This document shows, piece after piece, positions 25,722 through 31,346 of a stretch of DNA of 64,000 bases. Made by a program: the position numbers and the translations under genes. The notes beneath the pieces are model-generated. The model worked only from the letters and a program-made list of their open reading frames with translations. It did not search any database and was not told the origin of the DNA. This stretch comes from Methanomicrobiales archaeon HGW-Methanomicrobiales-3. GTDB lineage: Archaea > Halobacteriota > Methanomicrobia > Methanomicrobiales > Methanospirillaceae. How positions within the stretch are numbered: position 1 is the first letter of the stretch; each line of letters begins with the position of its first letter. The stretch lies in assembly GCA_002839605.1 (NCBI GenBank), contig PGYK01000001.1:124001-188000 (forward strand), read 5' to 3'.

Positions 25722-25774
25722 TGAGTGGAAAAATCAGCAAAAACTCAAATTCATATTTATGTATTTTCCTTCAT

Positions 25775-25795
25775 TTCCAGTGGAGAATAATTCGG
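25775..25795 (+). repeat. ORB-like half element in the hel308 upstream region
   Basis: TTCCAGTGGAGAATAATTCG matches the 5' half of the origin recognition box (TTCCAnTGGA) but lacks the GGGG end. It lies 64 bases upstream of a better copy and in the same orientation. It is weak evidence alone. Confidence 0.35.
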
Positions 25796-25838: not shown

Positions 25839-25858
25839 TTTGAGTGGAATTAAAGGGG
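25839..25858 (+). repeat. origin recognition box-like element at the hel308 promoter
   Basis: TTTGAGTGGAATTAAAGGGG, followed by TTCCCGGG, agrees at 15 of 20 positions with the strongest ORB beside orc1 (29780-29799), including the TGGAA core and the AAAGGGG end. It ends 19 bases before the hel308 start codon, where Orc1/Cdc6 binding could block or set transcription. Confidence 0.6.
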
Positions 25859-25877: not shown

Positions 25878-28076
25878 ATGTTAACTGAGACACTCCCAAT
25901 CCCTCAAAATCTCAGGGAACAGTATCTCGCAACCGGCATTGCCGAACTTTACCCTCCGCAGGCAGAGTGTGTACAGCGGGGGATGCTTGAGGGAAAGAAC
26001 CTGCTCGTTGCTATCCCCACCGCGAGCGGCAAGACCCTCATTGCCGAGATGGCGATGCACACAAAGATTGCCGGGGGTGGCAAGTGTCTGTACATCGTCC
26101 CGCTCAAGGCACTCGCAAGCGAGAAGTTCGATGAGTTCAGCGATAAAGGAGTCCGTGTTGGGATCGCAACCGGCGACTTCGACCGCCGCGACGATACGCT
26201 GGGCAGAAACGATATCATTGTTGCAACGAGCGAGAAGGTCGACTCACTCCTCCGGAACAACACCCGCTGGATCAGCGAGATAACGCTCCTTGTCATTGAT
26301 GAGATCCATCTCATCGATTCTGAGCACCGGGGACCCACGCTCGAGATGGTGATCGCCAAGCTGCGGTGCCGGAACCCGGCCATGCAGGTCATCGGCCTTT
26401 CGGCAACCATCGGCAACTCCGGGCTGCTTGCCGGCTGGCTGGATGCAGAACTGGTCACCAGCACCTGGCGGCCGGTCGACCTCAGGCAGGGGGTCTTCTG
26501 GAATGATCGCATCCATTTCCGCGAAGGGGAACGGGCGGTAAAACAGGTATCCAAAAATTACGAGGATCTCAACCTCTGTCTTGATACTATAGCCGAAGGC
26601 GGGCAGTGCCTGGTTTTCGTCTCCTCCCGCCGGAATGCCGAGGCGTTTGCCAAACGGGCTGCAGGAGCAATCAAGAGCGAGGATCCGTTACTGAAAGCCC
26701 TCGCTGATAAGCTCATGGCCTCCGCAGAGACCGAGATGGACAAGAGCCTTGCCCTCTGTGTTGAGAAAGGATCCGCGTTCCACCATGCCGGTTTAAGCCG
26801 GGATGAGCGAAAGATCGTTGAGGAGGGGTTCCGGAAAGGGCTGATCAAATCCATCTCCTCAACCCCCACGCTTGCAGCGGGATTGAACCTCCCCGCCCGC
26901 AGGGTTATTATCCGCGACTATCTCCGGTTCACTGCCGGGGAGGGGATGCAGCCGATCCCGGCGAGCGAGTACCACCAGATGGCAGGACGGGCCGGGCGTC
27001 CCCGGCTCGACCCGTATGGCGAAGCGGTACTCATCGCCAAGGACCAGGGGCAGGTCGAGGAGCTCTTCGATTATTATATCGATGCTCCATCCGAGGACGT
27101 CCACTCCAAAATCGCAGAACCAACGGCCCTGTACACGCATGTCCTCTCGCTTATCGCCTCGGGATTTGCCGGCACCCATGGCGAGCTTGCGGAGTTCATG
27201 AACCGGAGTTTCTATGTCCATGAGCACCGCCAGGGCCGGCTCATGCAGCGGGCAGTGGACTCCGCCTTACAGTTCCTCGTCACGGCAGAGATGGTGATGG
27301 AGGTTGGCGAGCATATCGGGGCAACCGCGTTTGGTTCGCTCGTTTCCCGGCTCTATATTGATCCCCGGAGTGCGGCGATGATAGTCTCCATGGTGAAGGA
27401 GAGAGAAGAGTATGCCGATATCGGACTTCTCCAGCTAATCTGCAGCACGCCTGATATGCCAAGGCTCTTTGTCCGAAATACTGATAGGCCCCAGCTCGAC
27501 CGGATGATTGATGAGCATGAAGAAGAGCTCTGGTTAGCCATGCCGCTGGAGGAGGATCTTGGGGAGGAATATTACCGGGCAATAAAAACAGCGATGCTCC
27601 TCTCTGACTGGACCGATGAGATGCCCGATGCAAAGATCTGCGAGCGCTATTCGGTTGGCCCCGGTGACGTCTTCGGCATGGTCGAGAGTGTCAACTGGCT
27701 GCTCCACGCAACCGCGGAGCTCTCGCGGATGTTTGCGCCCGCCTTCCACCAGCAGATCCATGATTACGAGACCTGCATGAAGAACGGGATCCGTCGCGAA
27801 CTCCTGCCGCTCGTGAAACTCCGGGGAATCGGACGTGTCCGTGCACGACGCCTCTTCAACAATTCCATAACCTCGCCTGAAGCGGTGCGTGCAGCGGGTA
27901 TCGAGTCCGTGACACGGATCATCGGCCGCGGGATCGCCGAGCAGATCTTTTCCCAGCTTGACGGGAAAAGAAAGATAAATCCGGAAAATACCGGACATGC
28001 AGCAAAGAAGGCTGAACCGGTGAGCAGGGATAAACCTGACAGGGCCGGACAGTCAACGCTCTCGCACTTCAGGTGA
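25878..28076 (+). CDS. hel308: Hel308-type DNA helicase
   Basis: A 732-residue superfamily 2 (Ski2-like) helicase that unwinds lagging strands at stalled forks. Motifs in order are YPPQ (Q motif, 25-28), PTASGKT (47-53), PLKALA, TGDFD, DEIH (141-144), [20 protein letters not shown] and [15 protein letters not shown]. The C-terminus has the ratchet and helix-hairpin-helix region ([13 protein letters not shown]) and ends in a short SHFR tail of the type seen in Hel308 that contacts RPA. Length is normal. The gene sits about 2 kb from the presumed origin and its promoter carries ORB-like sequence. Cgi121 follows closely. Confidence 0.95.
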
Positions 28077-28700: not shown

Positions 28701-29189
28701 TCACCGGTTTGCATGACTCAGAACGTGGGCAATCTCCGGCAGGATGAGTTCAGTGGTTGCCAGGGTTACTGCGGGTGTTGATCCCGGAATACAGAATACT
28801 GCCTTACCACCAATAATACCGGCAACTGCACGGGAGAGCATCGATGCCGTGCCAATCTGTCCGATGCTCTTCATCCGGAAGAACTCCCCGAATCCCTCGA
28901 TTCTCTTCTCAAGGAGTGGAGAGACGGCCTCGATCGTGCAGTCATCGTGGGTGAGACCGGTTCCCCCGTTAATGATGATGCAGTTTGCCACCTTCAGGGC
29001 ACTGAACAGTTCGTTCCGGATGGCATCGATACGATCCGGTACGATGGCATAATGGGCGATGGTAATCGATTTTTCTTTGAGGAGACCGGCAACGGCCTTT
29101 CCGCTTGTATCGGTATCAGGGGTCCGGGTGGTTGAAACAGTAATTATTGCCCCCGTTATTACCTGTTGTCTGACGTGATCGTGACTCAT
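28701..29189 (-). CDS. moaB: molybdopterin adenylyltransferase-like protein (MoaB/Mog)
   Basis: A 162-residue MoaB/MogA-fold protein. It has VSTTRTPDTDTSGKAVAGLL, the IINGGTGLTHDDCTIEAV active-site segment and IPGSTPAV near the end. The enzyme adenylylates molybdopterin before molybdenum or tungsten insertion; methanogens need this for formylmethanofuran dehydrogenase and, if present, formate dehydrogenase. It reads away from the origin region. About 95 bases separate its end from the convergent cgi121 gene. Confidence 0.9.
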   Translation of the reverse strand: MSHDHVRQQVITGAIITVSTTRTPDTDTSGKAVAGLLKEKSITIAHYAIVPDRIDAIRNELFSALKVANCIIINGGTGLTHDDCTIEAVSPLLEKRIEGFGEFFRMKSIGQIGTASMLSRAVAGIIGGKAVFCIPGSTPAVTLATTELILPEIAHVLSHANR

Positions 29190-29573
29190 AACAGATGAGC
29201 TATTGCGTGTTATTCGTATTGAGAATTTGGTGAGGGCCGGGTTGCTGGTTTTTTTGAGGATTCCTGAATCCCGGAAACAATTTGGAACCAGACACTATTA
29301 TTTTGGAGTTCAAAAATTCACCAACAAAAGTGCAGGGCCCGGGGAGGTTTTATGGATTTTTGTATTCGGGATACCAAATTCAGGTAATGAGAAATAATGG
29401 GGCTAAAGATCGCTATCCAATACCTGTTCCATGACAGGCAAGTGAATTTTAAAATAACTGTGAATGTCACCATACGAAACCCTTCCTGGCAAGAAAAATC
29501 TCTATCCTTGAAAATTTTGGCAGTCAGACTTTCCCAGAGCCAGCTGTATGGGTGATCATCCTGCACGGACACC

Positions 29574-29593
29574 CCCCATCATTTCCTATGGAA
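29574..29593 (-). repeat. origin recognition box (minus strand)
   Basis: On the minus strand this reads TTCCATAGGAAATGATGGGG, then GGTGTCC. It agrees with the copy at 29780 at 15 of 20 positions and shares the trailing GTGTCC. It is oriented toward the opposite boxes. Confidence 0.75.
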
Positions 29594-29698
29594 TTCTTAT
29601 TTTCGTGCCTCCTTTGTTCGTTTTAGCGTTATTACAATAGTTCTTGGATAATTCCACTCAACAAACCTTTTTCATTTTGTCAAAATCATTTCGACTGG

Positions 29699-29731
29699 TT
29701 TATATAATATTAACAATAAACTCTAAAATGG
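29699..29731. other. AT-rich tract, candidate DNA unwinding element
   Basis: A 33-base segment with only about four G/C bases (TTTATATAATATTAACAAT at its heart), set between opposed origin recognition boxes. AT-rich tracts in this position are where archaeal origins are expected to melt. Confidence 0.55.
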
Positions 29732-29779
29732 CTTCTTTCACAAAAATTATTTGGGAGTGAGTTACACTTCCCAAAACAC

Positions 29780-29799
29780 CTCCACTGGAAATAAAGGGG
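29780..29799 (+). repeat. origin recognition box (best copy)
   Basis: CTCCACTGGAAATAAAGGGG, continuing TGTCCCCC. It has the full layout of archaeal ORBs: TCCAnTGGAAA core, AA spacer and G-stretch. The copy at 29966 agrees at 17 of 20 positions. Confidence 0.8.
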
Positions 29800-29965
29800 T
29801 GTCCCCCTCACGGAAAAAAGATGTTATCGTCCGAAGGAAACGGGCGATCAGGCATTAAAAAACCGGATAAATCACCGGATTCCTGCTGGAATCAAAAAAA
29901 GAATAATAAATCGGGTATATCCCAATACATGAATATTTTCAAAATCAAAGCATAATTCGAGTGAT

Positions 29966-29985
29966 CTCCACAAGAAGTAAAGGGG
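29966..29985 (+). repeat. origin recognition box upstream of orc1/cdc6
   Basis: CTCCACAAGAAGTAAAGGGG, followed by TTAATC. Same strand as the copy at 29780. It ends 68 bases before the orc1 start, so the protein could also control its own gene from here. Confidence 0.75.
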
Positions 29986-30053
29986 TTAATCAACCGTGCA
30001 AACCGATCGTTTTTTAGTCTCATCACACTAATTCTCAGCTCCACTGTGTGATC

Positions 30054-31346
30054 ATGCCCGATACCGAAGACCCCTCAACCGGACTATTCAAAAAATATCT
30101 GACCAACAACCGGATCTTCAAGGACCGGGAAGTGCTCAGGCACTCGTACCGTCCGCAGATCCTGCCCCACCGGAAGCCCCAGATAGATGAAGTTGCCTCG
30201 ATCCTCGCCCCGTCTCTTCGAAATGAAACTCCTTCAAACATCCTTATCTACGGCAAGACCGGCACCGGCAAGACCGCGTGTGTCCGGTATGTGGGCTGGG
30301 AGCTTGAGAAAGCAAGCTCCAAGATGGGAACTCTCTGCCGTATTGTGCACCTGAACTGCGAGGTGATCGATACCCAGTACCGGGTCCTGGCCCAGATCGC
30401 CAAATGCCTTGACGTACCGGATGATCTGGCAAGTGACAAGACCCGCACCCATATCCCGATGACCGGGTGGCCGACAGATCAGGTGTATTCCGAGCTCAAG
30501 AACCAGCTGGAAGCCGGAGGCGGGGTCCTTGTCATCGTGCTTGATGAAATTGACAAACTGGTGAAAAAGAGCGGGGATGACACCCTCTATAACCTGACAC
30601 GGATCAATTCAGATCTCAAGAATTCCAAGGTCAGCATCATCGGGATCTCCAATGATCTGAGTTTCAAGGACTTCCTTGATCCCCGGGTTCTCTCCTCGCT
30701 CTCTGAGGAAGAGATTGTCTTCCCCCCCTACAACGCCCCGCAGCTCGTGGACATCCTTGCCCAGCGTGCTGATGGTGCTTTCATGCCCGGGGCCATTGCC
30801 GACGGTGTTATCCCGCTCTGTTCTGCGCTTGCCGCGCAGGAACATGGAGATGCACGGCGGGCGCTCGATCTCTTCAGGATCTCCGGAGAACTTGCCGATC
30901 GGGACGAGTCAGCTCAGGTGACCGAGGCGCACGTCAAGCTGGCACAGGCTAAGATCGAGACCGACAGCATGATCGAATGCATTTCCACGCTCCCCACGCA
31001 GAGCAAACTGATCCTCTTCTCGATGCTGATCCTGGAACAGCTGGGCCAGAATATCTTTACGAGCGGGGAAGTATCACGTATCTATCAGGATATTGCTCCA
31101 ACCATCGAACTTGATGTCCTCACCCACCGCAGGATCACCGATCTCATCTCCGAGCTGAACATGCTTGGCGTGATCAACACCCGGGTTGTCAGCCGCGGGC
31201 GGTATGGCAGGACCAAGGAGATGTGGTTTGACTCCAATACGGGCAAGATCCGTGAGGTGGTACTCAAGGACGCGCGCCTGAACGGGCTCAAGGACCTTGA
31301 CGTATCGCAGATGGAAGCCAAGTGGCTCAAGACCTGGTTCAGGTGA
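30054..31346 (+). CDS. orc1: Orc1/Cdc6 replication initiator
   Basis: A 430-residue AAA+ initiator that binds ORBs and loads the MCM helicase. Features are the N-terminal FKDREVLRHSYRPQILPHR, Walker A GKTGTGKT (67-74), Walker B VIVLDEIDKL (about 160), sensor 1 IIGISND, and sensor 2 within HGDARRALDLFR. A C-terminal winged helix begins around residue 300. An in-frame GTG six bases upstream is an alternative start; I chose the ATG at 30054. The neighbouring gene-free region with ORBs fits its role. Confidence 0.96.
   Translation: MPDTEDPSTGLFKKYLTNNRIFKDREVLRHSYRPQILPHRKPQIDEVASILAPSLRNETPSNILIYGKTGTGKTACVRYVGWELEKASSKMGTLCRIVHLNCEVIDTQYRVLAQIAKCLDVPDDLASDKTRTHIPMTGWPTDQVYSELKNQLEAGGGVLVIVLDEIDKLVKKSGDDTLYNLTRINSDLKNSKVSIIGISNDLSFKDFLDPRVLSSLSEEEIVFPPYNAPQLVDILAQRADGAFMPGAIADGVIPLCSALAAQEHGDARRALDLFRISGELADRDESAQVTEAHVKLAQAKIETDSMIECISTLPTQSKLILFSMLILEQLGQNIFTSGEVSRIYQDIAPTIELDVLTHRRITDLISELNMLGVINTRVVSRGRYGRTKEMWFDSNTGKIREVVLKDARLNGLKDLDVSQMEAKWLKTWFR

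Follow-up and report, generated by a model that had tools for sequence, protein, structure and literature searches.

The origin recognition box (ORB) of the Methanomicrobia is given as the motif TCCA[GC]T[GT]GAAA[CT][AG]A[AT]GGGGT in the DoriC / Ori-Finder 2 work (PMC4164010). In Haloarcula hispanica oriC1, an inverted repeat inside the ORBs acts as a replication enhancer (PMC3936714), and in Sulfolobus oriC1 a motif named ucm, located between ORB2 and ORB3, is required for activity and is bound by UBP, the gene for which is restricted to the Sulfolobales and Desulfurococcales (PMC12141716). For the predicted origin of Methanocella paludicola, a repeat cluster with a mini-ORB-like sequence has been reported, with no description of an opposed pair or an inter-box element (PMC3146512). 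The locus analysed here shares features with each of these. It has the motif with its G-string, the intergenic position beside orc1 and the AT-rich region of the Methanomicrobia oriC; like H. hispanica oriC1, it has opposed ORBs next to cdc6 that enclose AT-rich DNA, together with an internal inverted repeat; like Sulfolobus oriC1, it has two opposed ORBs and a short motif conserved within the probable unwinding region that they flank; and, as in M. paludicola, it has a methanogen cdc6 gene accompanied by a cluster of ORB-like repeats. What distinguishes it from the first of these, for which the available part of the source covers motif and location, is a conserved AT element, an inverted repeat of fixed position and an ORB-like pair at hel308.

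The window, by which we mean the whole stretch of 64,000 nucleotides that was analysed (C16:124001-188000), belongs to a genome of 2.59 Mb in 18 contigs, and the relatives of its orc1 are those of Methanoregula and other Methanomicrobiales, which are methane-producing archaea. A sequence-only reading had proposed that an 864-base, gene-free and AT-rich interval before orc1 is the chromosome's origin, or one of its origins. We could confirm the interval itself, which is bounded on the left by the start of a moaB-like gene and on the right by the orc1 ATG at 30054: GC content is 0.41 in the kilobase around it versus ~0.57 elsewhere, and its sole open reading frame of at least 80 aa, an 84-aa minus-strand frame at 29318-29572, is without support. 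A search of the window for RNA families (Rfam) gave no match, and bacterial-type promoters and terminators were found in the interval at chance level only. The one minus-strand and two plus-strand boxes that had been reported also proved to lie where they were placed. The features of the locus are as follows.

28701-29189, minus strand: moaB-like gene, left border of the putative origin (PF00994; TIGR00177 above cut-off)
29190-30053, no strand: intergenic region, very probable replication origin, between the moaB-like gene and orc1, without a supported gene
29574-29593, minus strand: ORB 1, left side of the opposed pair, TTCCATAGGAAATGATGGGG (pattern with 2 mismatches; 24.8 bits)
29699-29737, plus strand: AT-rich element TTTATATAATATTAACAATAAACTCTAAAATGGCTTCTT, conserved, promoter-like in character and probably the site of unwinding
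29750-29775, no strand: inverted repeat TTTGGGAGTG-AGTTA-CACTTCCCAAA, ending 4 nt before ORB 2
29780-29799, plus strand: ORB 2, right side of the opposed pair, CTCCACTGGAAATAAAGGGG (33.9 bits)
29966-29985, plus strand: ORB 3, orc1-proximal, CTCCACAAGAAGTAAAGGGG (24.8 bits), 88 nt before the orc1 ATG
30001-30020, plus strand: conserved block AACCGATCGTTTTTTAGTCT of the orc1 promoter/leader, the best conserved 20-mer of the interval in a genus alignment
30054-31346, plus strand: orc1/cdc6 initiator gene of the Orc1-1 type, 430 aa (NF001625 and TIGR02928 above cut-off)

Allowing up to 3 mismatches, a generic ORB pattern matched the window 7 times compared with 0.63 expected, and the published Methanomicrobia motif (PMC4164010), whose derivation did not involve this window, occurred at exactly 5 sites compared with 0.10 expected. 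Those five are the three boxes of the interval and the pair before hel308. When ORB 2 is shifted by one base (29781-29800) it matches the published motif perfectly. With an ORB matrix built from relatives, the three boxes ranked first to third in 400 kb of the contig, ORB 2 being the best ORB in the stretch searched and ORB 1 and ORB 3 joint second and third. The agreement of 15 to 17 of 20 positions previously given for the boxes holds against the middle box and fails for the remaining pair (15, 17 and 14 of 20 in pairwise comparison by eye). The locus has an opposed pair among several ORBs, as do archaeal origins adjoining orc1/cdc6, and the G-strings of its minus and plus boxes face away from the AT-rich region that these boxes enclose.

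The adjoining gene is itself of the initiator type, as expected of an archaeal origin. Its product has AAA+, lid and winged-helix domains, and the closest solved chains are Sulfolobus solfataricus Orc1-1 (2qby_A) and Aeropyrum pernix Orc1 (2v1u). In the winged helix, which in initiators carries arginines that contact the ORB, an RGRYG(R/K)TKE wing and an RR(I/V) helix can be aligned in sequence with both chains. By its sequence, we class the product as an Orc1-1-type initiator.

The arrangement of boxes recurs throughout the order. In a survey of 80 named orc1 loci, the minus box lies ~400–1000 bases before orc1, the first plus box in most cases between about -220 and -290, and the orc1-proximal plus box near -88 to -100; over the relatives as a whole, this last position is held at about -85 to -114. 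Among the 58 loci for which 1.2 kb or more of DNA upstream of orc1 was available, 52 have the minus-then-plus order, 31 of them as exactly minus-plus-plus, and six are without a minus-plus pair at 2 mismatches. In an alignment of the genus, mean identity of the interval to the window was 47%, the three boxes standing out as islands at 76–81%, and further strong blocks were found in the orc1 promoter/leader (30001-30049). No ORB match with up to 3 mismatches was found upstream of orc1 in Candidatus Methanofilum and a similar MAG (L124 and L125), in which the origin boxes may have changed. A few near-perfect ORBs are also present elsewhere in these genomes, and therefore an ORB alone does not make an origin.

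These hallmarks, their order-wide occurrence and a switch of AT skew in a complete relative (see below) support the earlier reading, and we consider the interval very probably to be a bidirectional chromosomal replication origin of a Methanoregula. By analogy with other archaeal origins (PMC3936714, PMC12141716), Orc1 made next door would bind the minus box and the plus boxes, the opposed Orc1 complexes would bend, distort and open the AT element at 29699-29737, and MCM helicases would then be loaded at the opened element. The inverted repeat beside ORB 2 probably aids opening or positioning, and Orc1 at ORB 3, on the orc1 promoter, would be likely to limit its own synthesis.

The AT tract described earlier between the opposed boxes, the position at which archaeal origins have their AT-rich unwinding region, is real: the 50-mer starting at 29699 has the highest AT content (82%) of all those in the window. 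Comparison with relatives indicates that the tract is a conserved, oriented element of 39 bp, usually 77–86 nt before the first plus box, with the form TTTATATARTATTAA-n10-TAAAATGGCTTCTT in the stretch that separates the minus box from the first plus box. Nine relatives, the window not among them, were used to train a matrix, which gave 34 bits in the window, whereas its best score in ~4.7 Mb of background strand was 13; scores were 21–32 in Methanocalculus, 20–23 in Methanogenium and 26 bits at one Methanomicrobiaceae locus. Matches above the null fall within the span of the opposed boxes, in plus-strand orientation. The element starts 79–82 nt before ORB 2 in Methanoregula, and the distance is longer (90–432 nt) in Methanocalculus and Methanogenium. 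In Methanoculleus and other genera the best match, of the form TTTATAT...ACACATGACTATC, is weaker and not above the null score, and the evidence there is its constant position, mostly 77–86 nt before ORB 2. The AT elements of some relatives (L101, L104, L102) contain TACAAA-like letters which, by eye only, recall the core of the Sulfolobus ucm.

The inverted repeat between this element and ORB 2 can form a stem of ten pairs with one bulge in the window (DNA fold z -4.2). Its sequence is usually different in relatives, examples of the two halves being AATATCAA/TTGATATT, AATAATATGAT/ATCATATTATT, ACGATACAC/GTGTATCGT and TGATGAGAAGA/TCTTCTCATCA, and despite this change the stems usually end 3–11 nt from the first plus box. 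Stems with at least 7 Watson-Crick pairs ending within 14 nt of the box were present in 30 of 75 loci compared with 2.3 expected in shuffles (maximum 7 in 200 runs), and in a per-locus test 27 of 58 loci passed p 0.05 versus 2 of 58 for the segment directly after the box. As the repeat was spotted by eye before testing and the loci are related, these figures describe a pattern and are not an independent trial. Paired changes in the stem, such as T-A to C-G, are seen in the Methanoculleus alignment.

Possibly, the AT element and the inverted repeat are not a DNA unwinding element at all, being instead a promoter with a short structured RNA, either an origin transcript or an orc1 leader. We think this rather unlikely, although the element is promoter-like in having TATA followed ~25 nt on, in fixed orientation, by an initiator-like ATGGCT (more generally ATGRCT), with the inverted repeat 20–50 nt further on. 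The stems are of Watson-Crick pairs with almost no G-T, so that pairing on both DNA strands suits them at least equally; RNA is not favoured over DNA pairing because in-stem mismatches are few (five, one of them G-T). In addition, the downstream sequence encodes no conserved peptide and has no Rfam match, and ORB 3 has an adjoining TATA-like site of its own. The idea that the AT element precedes a leaderless gene was rejected, as downstream frames are not conserved.

A different question, on the reading of the interval as an origin, is whether it is one of two or more. The genome has two orc1/cdc6 genes, the second at C7:193321-194370 (L002 1468-2592), and multiple origins are known in haloarchaea and Sulfolobus (PMC4164010, PMC3936714), so another origin could lie near the second gene or at another ORB site. 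This is improbable. The second gene is of another subfamily (NF001624/NF001626), its winged helix is without the RGRYG wing of Orc1-1, and a search of its 4-kb locus for ORBs found none, for which reason an origin at that gene was rejected; its product is possibly a regulator.

The skew of a complete close relative, G068, also argues against several origins. The genome of this relative is 2.82 Mb, its ORBs lie at 881.75-882.15 kb and its orc1 is 95% identical. It was sampled as 80 stretches of 20 kb at a 35-kb sampling step, and several skew statistics were tried. Third-position AT skew, averaged over both gene strands, divides this chromosome into two domains only, with arm means of -0.047 and +0.039 and breaks at 867.5 kb and 2197.5 kb (permutation p below 0.0005). 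The first break, the extreme of the disparity curve expected at an archaeal origin, is at most one 35-kb sampling step from the ORB cluster, and the second is 47% of the chromosome from the first, near the opposite point. This localisation is approximate because other AT measures place the first break at 972–1077 kb, up to ~195 kb away. A second genome (G035) has the same sign change of AT skew across orc1 (p 0.03, from 20 of 60 stretches, a third of the genome), and the window's own contig, which is too short, has a change of the right sign that is not significant (p 0.21). GC skew, third-position GC skew and gene-strand bias revealed no domain structure in G068, and a turn in GC skew, which had been proposed as a check, can neither confirm nor refute the origin as this skew is flat everywhere there. 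The records of some complete relatives start just before orc1, which also favours an origin there. Since the second orc1/cdc6 gene has no ORBs nearby and the skew has only two domains, a single origin is favoured, and the interval is most likely the only origin of this chromosome.

It is very improbable that the boxes serve mainly as an operator array for control by Orc1 of its own gene, and perhaps also of the divergent moaB-like one, while replication starts elsewhere. In support of such an array, 54 of 68 relatives have a TATA-like sequence no more than 8 nt after ORB 3 (in the window a weaker TTAATC), and units of box plus promoter do exist without being origins, at distant hel308 promoters and at TATA-like sites across the genus. 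Against it, the operator of a single gene needs no opposed distal box 200–1000 bases off, flanking the most AT-rich stretch, and it does not predict a chromosome-scale skew switch in a relative; moreover, known archaeal origins share this architecture (PMC3936714). ORB 3 of the origin may nevertheless double as an orc1 operator, and autoregulation of orc1 is likely because Orc1 bound there would compete with basal factors. That the boxes arose by chance in an AT-rich gap is refuted by the five sites found versus 0.10 expected and by conservation across an order.

Two ORB-like boxes lie outside the origin core, beside hel308 (25878-28076), which is 4.2 kb from orc1.

25766-25785, minus strand: ORB-like box, upstream half of the hel308 pair (18.7 bits)
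25839-25858, plus strand: ORB-like box shortly before the hel308 start, downstream half of the pair (15.1 bits)

In each of the 29 loci in which both boxes could be located, the dyads of this pair are 63–66 nt apart, a spacing constant across families; some lineages are without the pair. The plus box is retained by hel308 at 10.7, 24 and 29–44 kb from orc1, and because it stays with the gene so far away, we assign the pair to hel308 rather than to the origin; as a simplest reading, an outer part of the origin was rejected on the same evidence of retention at 10–44 kb. The pair brackets the hel308 promoter, a candidate Orc1-regulated promoter.

The origin itself is thus an ordinary and well-supported case of a known archaeal type, and what would surprise a specialist is the inter-box module and the hel308 pair. 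For these two in methanogens no description was found in the open-access literature, subscription papers being mostly outside the search. We suggest, tentatively and at somewhat less than even odds, that Methanomicrobiales origins hold an internal module of AT element and repeat and that Orc1 controls hel308 through the ORB pair. The module would consist of an oriented AT/TATA element at a near-fixed distance from the plus ORB and a repeat that drifts in sequence while its pairing is kept. Its parts resemble the Haloarcula repeat and the Sulfolobus ucm in place, not in sequence. Unlike the repeat of H. hispanica oriC1, which is G-rich with a half beside each ORB, the methanogen repeat hugs only the plus box, with both halves beside that one ORB, and its stem is free in sequence and, in most relatives, not rich in G; its action may resemble that of the haloarchaeal enhancer, though it is not a member of that class. 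Similarly, the AT element is longer than the 11-bp ucm bound by UBP.

If the module is real, its function would correspond to that of the crenarchaeal ucm and the haloarchaeal inverted repeat, and it would set the place and order of strand opening or transcribe a short origin RNA. The AT element and repeat bear on a question left by the 2025 work on Sulfolobus (PMC12141716), namely whether lineage-specific origin factors exist in other archaea, and they give exact bases to mutate. Control of hel308 by Orc1, through opposed ORBs about six helical turns apart, would tie fork repair to the level of the initiator, and the pair is a testable case of the Orc1 initiator as a transcription regulator away from the origin. 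More generally, the analysis fixes oriC for Methanoregula, at the strength given above, and defines more sharply how ORBs are arranged in a whole order of methanogens.

Other ORBs in these genomes were also seen beside promoter-like sequences. Throughout the genus, single ORBs directly abut a TATA box and have the tail GGGGTATAAAAGGATGATCAATTTGCCGGATT in common, beside varied genes, at L004 1501-1550 (C5:97367), L005 ~1470-1520 (C7:112099) and in L129, L134, L135, L138, L140, L144 and L146; these units are possibly Orc1-controlled promoters of short RNAs. A second recurrent unit of ORB plus TATA, with a downstream tail like CTCTATAGATCGC...CATGCATTGCA, occupies a convergent intergenic region ~20–45 nt after a gene encoding a 'LLKPALNSPDPYPSTTHPL...' protein (L136, L139, L143, L145). 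Methanoculleus and relatives (L078-L093, L098, L117 and others) have an extra opposed ORB pair ~3 kb downstream of the orc1 start, at +3.06 kb and ~+3.3 kb, where the window has none; candidate roles for it are a titration site, a second promoter unit or an extra origin element.
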